Of a stretch of 39,802 nucleotides of DNA, positions 15,317-23,029 are shown piece by piece. The first letter of the stretch is position 1; each line of letters begins with the position of its first letter. The notes beneath the pieces were generated by a model. The model was not told the origin of the DNA. It did no database searches and worked only from the letters and a program-made list of their open reading frames with translations. A program made the position numbers and the translations under genes. Origin of the DNA: Candidatus Eiseniibacteriota bacterium (GTDB lineage Bacteria > Eisenbacteria > RBG-16-71-46 > SZUA-252); the NCBI GenBank assembly GCA_005893265.1, contig VBOX01000002.1, forward strand, positions 1 through 39,802. The letters run 5' to 3'.

Positions 15317-15414
15317 TGGCGGGAACGTGTGGGAATCGAACCCACCTCGGACGTTATGAGCGCCCGACAGAAGGATTTGAAGTCCTCGGAGTCCACCAGA
15401 ACCCATCCGTCCCC
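15317..15414 (-). tRNA. selC: tRNA-Sec (anticodon TCA)
   Basis: Long selenocysteine tRNA of 98 bases. The anticodon arm AGGACTTCAAATCCTT holds TCA and resembles E. coli selC. The D-arm has a 6-bp stem (GGGTTC/GGACTC, with wobbles) closed by a 4-base TGGT loop. The long variable arm pairs TCGGGCG with CGTCCGA, and the T-arm is GTGGG-TTCGATT-CCCAC. The acceptor GGGGACG pairs with CGTTCCC; the 8th pair expected in bacterial tRNA-Sec is a G-A mismatch here. G discriminator and encoded CCA. It lies 10 bases downstream of selD on the same strand, so the genome decodes UGA as selenocysteine; selA, selB and selenoprotein genes must lie elsewhere. Confidence 0.95.
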
Positions 15415-15424
15415 GGACAGCGCG

Positions 15425-16476
15425 TCACGCCGCCACCTCGAGCGGCCGCGTTCGGCGGGGAAGAACTTCCCCAACCACCGTCGCGAACACCTTCCCCCGC
15501 GCGAGCCGGCGCATGAGCGCGGTCGCGCGCGAAGGCCGAACCGCGATCAGGAGGCCCCCGGAGGTCTGCGGGTCGACAAGCACGTGCCGGAGCGGCTCGG
15601 ATATGCCGGCGTCGAAGGTCACGTGAGGCGCGGCGTACGACGCGTTGGTCATCAACCCGCCGGGCATGACGCCCCGGGCCGCGAGCTCCAGCACACCCGG
15701 CAACACGGGAACCGCCGCGCTCCAGATCCGGATCGTCTTCCGGCTGGCGCGTGCGACGTTCAGCGCGTGACCCAAGAGACCGAACCCCGTCACGTCGGTC
15801 GCCGCGCTCACCCCCACGGCCTGCATGGCCTCCCCGGCGGCTCGGTTCAGCGTCGCCATCTGCGTCGTCATGAGATCGACCGTCTCTTCCGGGAGGAGAC
15901 GCTGTTTCAACGCGGTCGCAAGAATGCCGACCCCCAAGGGCTTCGTCAGAACAAGCATGTCTCCGCTCTTGGCCCCCGCGTTCGAGACGATCCGTTTCGG
16001 GTGGACCTCCCCAGTGACCGCGAATCCGAACTTCATCTCCTTGTCGCGCACGGAGTGTCCTCCCATGAGCGCCACACGCGCCTGCTTCAGCGTCGCGGCG
16101 CCGCCGCGGAGGATCTCGCCCAAGACCGCCATGTCCCCGGACTCGGGATAGCAAACGATCGAGAGCGCGGTCATCGGCGTTCCACCCATGGCATAGACGT
16201 CGCTCAGCGCGTTCGCGGCGGCGATCCGCCCGAAATCGAATGGATCGTTGACCATGGGCGTGAAGAAATCCACCGTCTGGACGAGCGCGCGCGTTGGAGA
16301 GATCCGATACACGCCGGCGTCGTCCCAGGTTTCGGGACCGATCAGAACGCCCTTCGATCTCGGAGCGCCGGGGAGGGCGGAGAGGACCTGGCTCAAGTCG
16401 AGGGGGCTGAGCTTCGCGGCGCAGCCCGCGCAGGAGACCTGCTCGGTCAAACGCACGGCTTCGTTTCGCGCGTGCC

Positions 16477-16480
<4 letters not shown>
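15425..16480 (-). CDS. selD: Selenide, water dikinase (selenophosphate synthetase)
   Basis: SelD makes selenophosphate, the selenium donor for Sec-tRNA and for 2-selenouridine, from selenide and ATP. Visible: the N-terminal active-site segment SCAGCAAK, in which the first-sphere Cys and Lys are kept and the second Cys of the E. coli GCGCK is Ala, so this is a cysteine form rather than a selenoprotein. DDAGVY, the TVDFFTPMVNDPFDFGRIAAANALSD core, MGGHSVRD, TDVTGFGLLGH and DPQTSGGLL all match. About 350 residues. Two GTG starts are possible: 16480, overlapping the ridA stop as GTGA, or 16456; neither has a clear Shine-Dalgarno. The neighbouring tRNA-Sec confirms the selenium role. Confidence 0.95.
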
Positions 16481-18612
<2,132 letters not shown>

Positions 18613-20325: not shown

Positions 20326-20336
20326 GCCGGACGGCA

Positions 20337-20365
20337 ACGCTATCATGACGAGCACCCTCGGTCAA
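20337..20365 (-). promoter_or_regulatory. Sigma-70 promoter before tRNA-Phe
   Basis: TTGACC, 17 bases ending TGA, then TAGCGT on the minus strand, placing the start a few bases before the tRNA-Phe 5' end. It lies in the 43-base gap between the kinase-like gene stop and the tRNA. It probably drives both tRNAs and, by read-through, glmM onward. Confidence 0.7.
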
Positions 20366-20368
20366 CGG

Positions 20369-22594
20369 CTAGGCGAGCCTGCGGCGGCGGTCGGAGCGAC
20401 CATCCCGTCGGTCCGGTTTCCTACGACGGTCGTCGTTCTCGCGGGTCGGAAGATAGATCGTGACGATGCTGCTCCAGTCCCCTTCGCTCCGCGCGCGGAT
20501 CTCGCCGCCGTGCTCCCGCACGATCTGGTACGCCATCGCGAGGCCGACGCCCGCGCCGTAGCGCCGCGAGGTCGAGAAGGGCACGAACAGGCGATCGAGC
20601 ACCTCCCCCGCGACCTTCGGCCCGTCGTGTGCGATCTCGGCCTGCACGGCGCCTTGCGCCGCGCGCGTCTCGACCCGCAGCCGGCCCCCGCTGGGAACCG
20701 AATGGAGCGCGTAGCTCAGGACGTTCACGAGCACCTGCCGCATCTTTTCGTTGTCGAGGAGAAGGGTGGGCACGTCGGGGGCCAGGCGCTTGAGGAGCCG
20801 GACGCGCCGGCGCACCAGATCCTCCGCCTGAGACTGCAGCACATCCTGTACAAGCGCGTTGAGGTTCTCGAGCTTCAAACGGGGGCGGGTCATCTGCGCG
20901 AGCGCGACCTGCTCGCTCAGGACCCGCTCCAACCGCTCGGTCTCGCGGAGGATGATCTCGAGATATTCGCGGTTGGGGTCTTTCGGCGGGAGGCTTTTTA
21001 AGACTCGCTTGGCGAACCCGGTGATCGCCGCGACTGGGTTCCGGACGTCCTGAGCGACCTGAACGCCCCGCTCGCCCACGACGGCCAGCTTCTCCGCGTG
21101 GCGCAGCTGCGCCTCGACTTCGTGGAGGCGACGATCCTTCATCCGGAGCGCCTCCTCCTGCGAGGAGCGCGTTTCGGCGAGGGATGCGATCGAGGTGACG
21201 AGATCGGCGACGTACGCGTCCTCGGGATCGAAGGCCGCGGGCACCTCCTGCGTGCCGCCCGCCTTGTTGAACACGAGGAGCGCGCCGGAAATCCGATTCG
21301 TCTCGTGAATCGGTGCAGCCAGGAGGCACCGCCAATCCTCCGGCATGAATCCCGAGAAGCGCGGATCCTCGCTCACGACGTCGGCGACCAGCGGTTTTCC
21401 GTCCGCCTCGAACCACTGGATGATCCAGGCACCGAGCTTCGAAAGATCCTGCGTCGCGCCGGCATCGACCCCGTGCACATGCGCCAGCTCGGCGGAGCCG
21501 TCCTCGCGCTTGATCCATGCCACGCCGCCCCCAGCCTGGGTCGCGCTCAGGAGGACCTTGAGCGCCAGCTCGGCGCGCGTTTCCGGCCGCGCCGGCCGGA
21601 CCGCCGCGCGGCTGAAGTCGATCGCGGCACGAACCGCCGCTCCGCGGCGCCGCGCCACGTCCAGCACGGCATTTCCTTCGAACGCGATCCCGGCCTGCGC
21701 GGCGATCGCGCTCAAGAGCTCAACTTGGTCGCTCGTCCAGCCGGCATAGCCCGCCGATTGGGAGACGAGGAGCACGCCGAGCACGCGTTCGCGGCCGAAC
21801 AGGGGGAGGATGGCGAGAGGACCGTCCGGCAGCGATTCGGCGACGCGATCCGGCAGACGAAGCTCGCGCTGCGGGCTTGCGATCGACGATGCGCGGCCGT
21901 CGAAAACCGCGTCCGCAAGGAGGTCGCGATCCTGATCGAGAGGAAGCCGCTCCTCCCTGAGACGCGCGAACACCTCTCCGTCGAACCCTCCCTGCTCTTC
22001 GAACGCCTCCAGATCGAGGGCGGTGTGAAGCGGGGCGTCGGGCTCGGCGCGATCGGCCCGTCGGTAGGACCCCGCCAGCTCGAGCGCGGTCCCGTCCGGA
22101 ACAATCCTAAGGAGAAGGATGGTGTCCAATTCCTCCGCGAACGCGCCGCCGATCGCCGCGAGGAGGAGCCGCCCGATCCGGCCATGGGTGAGCGCGACGT
22201 GCATGAAGGGGATGGAGCGGAAGAGAAACCCGGCGGTGCGGTAGCGCACCCCCTCTTCCTCGAGCCCGTCCTGGTGCTCGACGCGGACCATCCGCGCTTC
22301 TTCCTCGAGAAGGTGAAACAGAAGGCCCAGCGTGGGGATCGCGCCCGCCGCCCCGCCGGGCAGAGGGTGGACCTGCTCCGCGGCGTCCTGCATGCGGCTG
22401 CAGTGGAGGCAGTCCTGGGCGAAACGGGTTTCGAAGTCGGGCCGCGCGTCGAAAGGGCATGGCCGCGGCGAGAGGTAACAAACACCTTCGGCGACGCGTT
22501 GGCAGCCTTGGGCTTTCCGGTCTGCGTAGCGCTTCCACGCGATGACGATCTGCTCTTCGATCCGCGCCGAGCCCGACGCCCGCTTCGCACCCAT
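20369..22594 (-). CDS. GAF-domain histidine-kinase-like protein lacking catalytic residues (putative pseudokinase)
   Basis: A 741-residue soluble protein (ATG 22594, with GGAGGGG 7 bases upstream). N-terminus: a cysteine cluster C-x7-C-x6-C-x15-C-x2-C (~31-65). Then two GAF-like sensor regions (~150-320 and ~335-480), a short coiled coil (~480-510), a dimerisation/HisKA-like region, a HATPase-like domain (~610-715) and an Arg/Asp-rich tail. The fold matches NtrB-type kinases, but the phosphoacceptor reads AQDVRNPV instead of AHE.RNPL (His to Gln), the N-box reads NVLSYA instead of NLLLNA (Asn to Tyr), and the G1 box reads HDGPK instead of DNGPG. The G2 box GAGVGLAMA is kept. It should therefore not autophosphorylate; it may sense a ligand or redox state and act through binding. 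No response regulator lies next to it. Confidence 0.85.
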   Translation of the reverse strand: MGAKRASGSARIEEQIVIAWKRYADRKAQGCQRVAEGVCYLSPRPCPFDARPDFETRFAQDCLHCSRMQDAAEQVHPLPGGAAGAIPTLGLLFHLLEEEARMVRVEHQDGLEEEGVRYRTAGFLFRSIPFMHVALTHGRIGRLLLAAIGGAFAEELDTILLLRIVPDGTALELAGSYRRADRAEPDAPLHTALDLEAFEEQGGFDGEVFARLREERLPLDQDRDLLADAVFDGRASSIASPQRELRLPDRVAESLPDGPLAILPLFGRERVLGVLLVSQSAGYAGWTSDQVELLSAIAAQAGIAFEGNAVLDVARRRGAAVRAAIDFSRAAVRPARPETRAELALKVLLSATQAGGGVAWIKREDGSAELAHVHGVDAGATQDLSKLGAWIIQWFEADGKPLVADVVSEDPRFSGFMPEDWRCLLAAPIHETNRISGALLVFNKAGGTQEVPAAFDPEDAYVADLVTSIASLAETRSSQEEALRMKDRRLHEVEAQLRHAEKLAVVGERGVQVAQDVRNPVAAITGFAKRVLKSLPPKDPNREYLEIILRETERLERVLSEQVALAQMTRPRLKLENLNALVQDVLQSQAEDLVRRRVRLLKRLAPDVPTLLLDNEKMRQVLVNVLSYALHSVPSGGRLRVETRAAQGAVQAEIAHDGPKVAGEVLDRLFVPFSTSRRYGAGVGLAMAYQIVREHGGEIRARSEGDWSSIVTIYLPTRENDDRRRKPDRRDGRSDRRRRLA

Positions 22595-22726: not shown

Positions 22727-23029
22727 ATGGAGCCAAAGCAACAGGGGCCGCCCGGATCCATCAACGTGGAGCTGGGCGAGCGCGAAGCCGAGGGGATCTA
22801 CTCGAACTTCGTCGTGATCAGCCACTCGCTTTCGGAATTCGTGATCGATTTCGCCCGGATCCTTCCCGGGAGTCCGAAAGGCAAAGTGTTCGCCCGGGTG
22901 GTCATGACGCCGCCGAACGTGCGCTCCCTCCTCACCGCGCTCGAGACCAACGTCAAGAAGTACGAGGATCAGTTCGGGAAGATCAAATCGTTCGAGGCGC
23001 CGAGCAAGGACATCGGTTTCACGACGTAG
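22727..23029 (+). CDS. DUF3467 domain protein
   Basis: A 100-residue protein, one of only three plus-strand genes. ATG 22727 follows AAAAGGAGG, a strong Shine-Dalgarno. The sequence matches DUF3467 along its length: INVELGEREAEGIYSNFVVISHS, EFVIDFARILPGSPKGKVFARVVMTP, and LLTALETNVKKYEDQFGKI. Members are small cytosolic proteins found widely in bacteria and have no established function. Its last 11 bases overlap the 3' end of the acyltransferase gene on the other strand (convergent stops). The track shows it only as the end of a 643-residue antisense ORF; the real gene is this last part. Confidence 0.93.
   Translation: MEPKQQGPPGSINVELGEREAEGIYSNFVVISHSLSEFVIDFARILPGSPKGKVFARVVMTPPNVRSLLTALETNVKKYEDQFGKIKSFEAPSKDIGFTT

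Follow-up and report, generated by a model that had tools for sequence, protein, structure and literature searches.

A probable maintained pseudo-histidine kinase of Candidatus Eisenbacteria and the apparent repeated loss of phosphotransfer at its locus

The described histidine kinases nearest by sequence to the protein studied here are HisKA kinases of the ZraS/AtoS type, which are active enzymes with all catalytic motifs. ZraS (9jfj) was matched with an E-value of 3.6e-32, and the AtoS model was matched with an E-value of 7e-49, yet far below the curated AtoS cut-off. The second closest solved structure was ThkA of Thermotoga (3a0r), which has Asn and not Asp at the G1 motif (NSGPP). Pseudo-histidine kinases, that is, homologues without catalytic residues that are retained by selection, are rare and mostly known as isolated end points. 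DivL of Caulobacter is likewise devoid of the phospho-His; it showed neither kinase nor phosphatase activity, but it binds DivK~P and its weak nucleotide binding persists (PMC4211667). RetS, a hybrid kinase, acts by binding on a partner kinase, GacS, whose autophosphorylation it blocks (PMC4866733), and a frameshifted ChrS works through HrrS (PMC9491836). For HisKA domains without the phospho-His, a share of 0.9% was reported (PMC12632262).

The gene under study lies in a stretch of 39,802 nucleotides, which was analysed as a whole and is referred to below as the window. The gene and its domains are located as follows.

20369–22594, minus strand: pseudo-histidine kinase gene, 741 aa (ORF with the ribosome-binding site GGAGG, Pfam domains, orthologues)
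21641–22186, minus strand: GAF domain 1, approximately residues 137–318 (Pfam GAF; AF2 secondary structure)
21155–21586, minus strand: GAF domain 2, approximately residues 337–480 (Pfam GAF_2 in two stretches; AF2 secondary structure)
20894–21058, minus strand: HisKA/DHp domain (PF00512, 35 bits)
20441–20755, minus strand: degenerate HATPase_c/CA domain (PF02518)

The ORF runs without interruption from the ATG at 22594, with GGAGG ahead of it, to the TAG at 20369–20371, and the intact frame of 741 residues given by an earlier sequence-only reading was right to the base. The domain order is GAF-GAF-HisKA-HATPase, and the Pfam matches to GAF (51 bits), HisKA (E-value 1.5e-8) and HATPase_c (58.4 bits, E-value 1.1e-15) all exceeded the curated cut-offs. 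Thus, the order and fold of a HisKA-type DHp and CA core were recognized by profile (PF00512, PF02518). Two AF2 models of the protein, built with five input sequences, were of low confidence (pLDDT 64.7 and 51.2). A PDB fold search with the first of these low-pLDDT models matched mainly tandem-GAF and phytochrome proteins and gave no useful match for the CA domain. Elsewhere in the window, a tRNA-SeC gene was found beside selD (15317–17023, minus strand); since the two are adjacent, the organism probably makes selenoproteins.

Alignment with orthologues and background kinases was used to locate the catalytic motifs of the protein.

21050–21052, minus strand: Gln515 at the phospho-His position (VAQDVRNP)
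20711–20713, minus strand: Tyr628 at the Mg-binding Asn of the N-box (NVLSYA)
20615–20629, minus strand: HDGPK (residues 656–660) at the G1 motif DxGxG
20543–20557, minus strand: intact G2 loop GAGVG

Tyr628 takes the place of the second, Mg-binding Asn of the N-box, the first being retained; within G1, His656 stands at the adenine-contacting Asp and Lys660 at the second Gly. The G2 motif (GAGVGLA) has all its Gly residues unaltered, and some nucleotide binding may persist, as in DivL. The changes proposed earlier, namely AHE to AQD, NxxxNA to NVLSYA and DxGxG to HDGPK with G2 kept, were all confirmed by this alignment. All 16 representative background histidine kinases from the phylum show H, N, D and G at the four columns, so the replacements are no alignment accident. 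The phospho-His, the N-box Asn, the G1 DxGxG and a cognate response regulator, which characterize an active HisKA kinase, are all absent. At the sequence level, phosphate donation from the usual His is impossible in this protein, and the nucleotide site is without its Mg and adenine contacts.

All three catalytic motifs thus differ from those of the ZraS/AtoS type, and ThkA differs in keeping both the His and the N-box Asn in the alignment. DivL is alike in having a HisKA-type core that lacks the phospho-His and is kept by selection, and the cores are related in sequence (4q20, E-value 2.5e-15). However, DivL has Tyr at the His position, PAS sensors and a receiver partner, DivK, that is still present, whereas the window protein has Gln, GAF domains, a deleted receiver gene, an Arg-rich tail and a DUF3467 neighbour; in addition to the His, its N-box and G1 are replaced (DivL was compared at the His position only). 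With GAF domains in place of PAS and Gln in place of Tyr, and with ZraS and ThkA matching better, the protein does not group with DivL by orthology or architecture, and nothing was found that would make it an orthologue of DivL, RetS or ChrS. It belongs to a known kind, represented by DivL and RetS, in a new lineage that documents the transition unusually clearly. In a literature search that covered few subscription journals, no report of repeated phospho-His loss at one syntenic locus coupled to receiver loss was found.

An orthologue was found in 40 of 47 genomes of the phylum, one per genome and in the same syntenic place. A profile built from the eight proteins of the window's family (f1, see below) gave exactly one strong match in 36 of the 47, and four orthologues (G010, G011, G037, G020) were added. 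The orthologue in G020 is short and divergent, and the one in G037 (L123, G037:C137:2098-3830) is split over two frames by either a real frameshift or an assembly error. In all 21 loci compared, the kinase gene adjoins a divergent DUF3467 gene, and where the contig permits, the block reads GlmM, kinase, DUF3467, LpxL, DprA, HEAT and Obg; some families have additional genes inserted between DUF3467 and LpxL. The kinase family is monophyletic against 29 other kinases (support 77, or 100 with G024). The conserved synteny and the tree together establish orthology. Relatives in a named genome collection, searched with patterns strict to f1, were mostly Candidatus Eisenbacteria MAGs. The sister kinase in G024 (f8; L146, G024:C209) is fully canonical (H, N, DTGVG), has a receiver and occupies a different chromosomal place; this pair has no Arg tail, and no DUF3467 was found anywhere in the G024 genome. 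It is a natural outgroup.

The phospho-His is absent in 30 of the 40 orthologues, being replaced by Gln (16), Glu (5), Arg (5) or, once each, Ala, Leu, Asp and Ser. The N-box Asn is absent in 27 and the G1 Asp in all 40, its column holding His in 23, Asn in 9 and other residues in the remainder; Asn at this position is common to ThkA and the His-bearing members. The His found at the G1 Asp column in 23 of 40 members (His656, 20627–20629 in the window) apparently arose convergently from Asn in f1, f11 and f5. In f11, the catalytic columns drift (Q/H/E/R/A at the His; Y/H/F/R/C/N and others at the Asn), while other columns are invariant. The tree places losses in f1, f11, f5, part of f2 and f6. 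With catalytic columns masked, the full-length tree groups f1 with f7/f9/f10 (support 100), while a tree of the core only joins f1 with f11. We infer at least about four independent losses of catalysis, or five if f1 and f11 count separately, as suggested by the masked tree; this count assumes that the His-bearing state is ancestral, as the outgroups indicate.

The retention of His, Asn and Asp in orthologues had been named as the sign of a single decayed copy. His and Asn are indeed both kept in 8 of the 40 orthologues, the Asp in none, whereas Gln, Tyr and His are fixed at these positions in f1. Since catalytic loss is lineage-wide and repeated, the window gene is not one decayed copy, despite the His- and Asn-bearing orthologues in other families.

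The space downstream of the kinase was compared across the loci.

20326–20368, no strand: 43 bp gap between the stop codon and tRNA-Phe, the receiver site in His-bearing orthologues; no receiver remnant found

The earlier remark that no regulator is adjacent therefore holds in the window; elsewhere in the phylum, orthologues have an adjacent receiver gene. A CheY-like receiver lies directly downstream on the same strand in each of the eight members that retain both His and Asn (L047, L048, L049, L050, L052, L063, L068 and L081). This single-domain protein is about 122 aa long, and its acidic pocket, phospho-Asp, Ser/Thr and Lys match those of active CheY-like proteins. Among the other loci with at least 400 bp downstream, a receiver was found in 3 of 29, all in f5 (Fisher p 4e-6, kinship ignored). 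Thus, phosphotransfer by an ancestral kinase–receiver pair disappeared on at least about four occasions, whereas the protein, its Arg tail, Trp707 and the divergent DUF3467 gene were kept. The f5 receiver of L079 is canonical beside a kinase with Glu at the His position, and those of L067 (EGN) and L078 (EPN) have a degenerate acidic pocket. This combination of one canonical and two degenerate receivers beside dead kinases suggests that the death of the kinase preceded that of the receiver. The EPN and EGN receivers (L099:8551-9126, minus strand, and downstream in L067) are possible pseudo-receivers caught in transition. The one-way story is complicated by L054 and L057 of f11, in which the His is present and both the N-box Asn and the receiver are absent.

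In a phylum-wide search for this receiver, true members scored 109–209 bits, and other receivers scored at most 103 bits, barring one G024 match at 112. In the window genome, nothing exceeded 79 bits, a score that came from a 486-codon frame, and the best matches in f1 genomes were regulator-length ORFs (77–88 bits). With no match of the receiver type, the gene is gone and not moved; relocation elsewhere in the genome was ruled out for f1 and f11, where the receiver has been lost genome-wide.

The window's GTDB-type family, f1, comprises nine genomes, eight of which contain one full-length orthologue each (51–92% identity to the window protein); in the ninth, G003, neither a match to the kinase nor DUF3467 was found. 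None of the eight departs from Gln, Tyr and HDGPK. Selection was estimated as dN/dS (Nei–Gojobori, own script) in five f1 species pairs, giving 0.02–0.19 for DHp, 0.02–0.09 for CA and 0.12–0.58 for the sensor/GAF regions; because several pairs have synonymous distances close to 1, individual ratios are approximate, but the contrast between domains stands. Mean pairwise identity in f1 is 85% for CA, 76% for DHp, 56% for GAF1 with the N-terminus and 41% for GAF2. The catalytically dead DHp/CA core is thus the most constrained part of the f1 protein and is under strong purifying selection. Motif loss together with these ratios makes the protein a pseudo-histidine kinase in the sense given above, and the sequence-only view of a maintained pseudokinase, not a decaying gene, stands. 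One further feature was seen in f1 only.

22400–22480, minus strand: N-terminal four-Cys motif C39-x6-C46-x15-C62-x2-C65, invariant in 8 of 8 f1 orthologues

Members outside f1 have no CxxC, with the single exception of one in L058. The motif may sense metal or redox state and may have been acquired within the pseudokinase lineage.

A comparison of columns among dead members, His-bearing members and background kinases revealed positions conserved in this kinase family only and in any catalytic state: Gln690, Glu698, Trp707, Asn720 and six Arg of the tail. The gene order added a constant neighbour.

20474–20476, minus strand: Trp707, family-specific, invariant in members with and without catalytic residues (column comparison)
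20381–20437, minus strand: C-terminal Arg tail NDDRRRKPDRRDGRSDRRR, three (D/E)RR units (orthologue alignment, column comparison)
22727–23029, plus strand: DUF3467 gene, 100 aa, divergent, constant neighbour (PF11950, 89 bits; synteny)

The tail follows the pattern N-x-(D/E)RR-x4-(D/E)RR-x4/5-(D/E)RR, was modelled by AF2 with very low confidence and no regular structure, and was not seen among the 29 background kinases. To our knowledge, neither it nor Trp707 is a feature of DivL or RetS. When the genome was searched with a DNA pattern encoding two (D/E)RR units, 21 scattered matches were obtained against 5 for a reversed control; the test is weak, being limited to CGN codons with the frame unread, and no family of tails was apparent among these matches. 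Among the 38 loci with sufficient sequence, DUF3467 lies upstream of the kinase in 37, L059 being the exception. It was not found either in the seven phylum genomes without the kinase; as several of these are fragmented, the joint absence may be missing sequence. The DUF3467 family is also present in the Thermus, Bacteroides and Methanosarcina controls. A sequence search of solved structures revealed none resembling it, and a literature search found no known function, the single paper in which it is named dealing with other matters.

All these characteristics allow us to propose that the protein is a maintained pseudo-histidine kinase acting through phosphorylation-independent binding, which we regard as probable. 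The dead core is the part most strictly preserved across the family, so the protein very probably signals by binding something. The ancestor would have been an ordinary GAF sensor kinase phosphorylating the CheY-like receiver encoded directly downstream. In f1, the phospho-His, N-box Asn and G1 motif were replaced and the receiver gene was deleted; as Gln is no phosphodonor, ordinary His–Asp phosphotransfer from the window protein is impossible at the sequence level. The GAF domains, in f1 together with the four-Cys module, would still sense some signal, and the dimeric DHp/CA fold and the Arg tail would pass it on by altered binding. The binding output is probably older than the loss of kinase function, since members with and without catalytic residues have in common Gln690, Glu698, Trp707, the (D/E)RR tail and DUF3467 as a neighbour. 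Owing to its constant adjacency, DUF3467 is the leading candidate partner, on the basis of co-conservation; this may instead stem from a promoter region used by both genes or simply from the synteny of housekeeping genes.

The main rival is also a binding reading but a more specific one, which places the partner within the two-component network: like DivL or RetS, the pseudokinase would bind and switch another histidine kinase or a foreign response regulator by hetero-dimerization or DHp docking. The DHp domain is strongly conserved, RxxNP-type residues included, about 40 HATPase matches in the genome are possible partners, and DivL (PMC4211667), RetS blocking GacS (PMC4866733) and frameshifted ChrS acting via HrrS (PMC9491836) are precedents. 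However, no kinase or regulator is linked to the window gene, and conservation peaks in the CA domain and the tail, not in DHp; we consider such a controller possible, with the odds against it. An enzyme that only dephosphorylates an unlinked response regulator is unlikely. It would agree with the E-x-x-N acidic residue and Asn retained beside the lost His (Asp/Glu516 and Asn519 in all f1 members, where this role may be possible) and with the report that the His is non-essential for HisKA phosphatase activity (PMC12632262), but the cognate receiver is missing from the genome, and the protein is kept in several f11 and f2 members with a broken motif (EACA, DARQ, EARH, SQIAT).

Kinase activity through another residue, such as His499 of LRHAEK, and an altered nucleotide site appears very improbable: His499 is invariant in f1 and the G2 and F boxes are intact, yet this His is in the linker helix, 16 residues upstream of the acceptor position, the N-box Asn, G1 Asp and G1 Gly are all lost, and the cognate receiver is no longer present. 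That the gene is a kinase on its way out is scarcely tenable. Catalytic residues were lost repeatedly, f11 drifts at these positions, the orthologue of G020 is short as well as divergent and that of G037 spans two frames, but core dN/dS of 0.02–0.19, 85% CA identity across the family and the lack of stops argue otherwise. Decay was refuted for f1 by the core dN/dS, and it may apply to G020 and G037 only.

Returning to phosphorylation-independent binding, we suggest tentatively that the family had two outputs from the start, namely phosphotransfer to the receiver and a phosphorylation-independent one via the CA face, the (D/E)RR tail and DUF3467, of which the first was repeatedly dropped and the second kept. 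If this is true, DUF3467 and the kinase fold would form a non-phosphorylating signalling module that was previously undescribed. One gene in one place of one phylum presents an active-looking pair as well as dead kinases with an intact, a degenerate or no receiver, and with this full series at one locus, the sequence of events becomes open to testing. The columns conserved whether or not catalysis has been lost indicate a function independent of kinase activity, and DUF3467, a widespread family without known function, gains its first concrete context.
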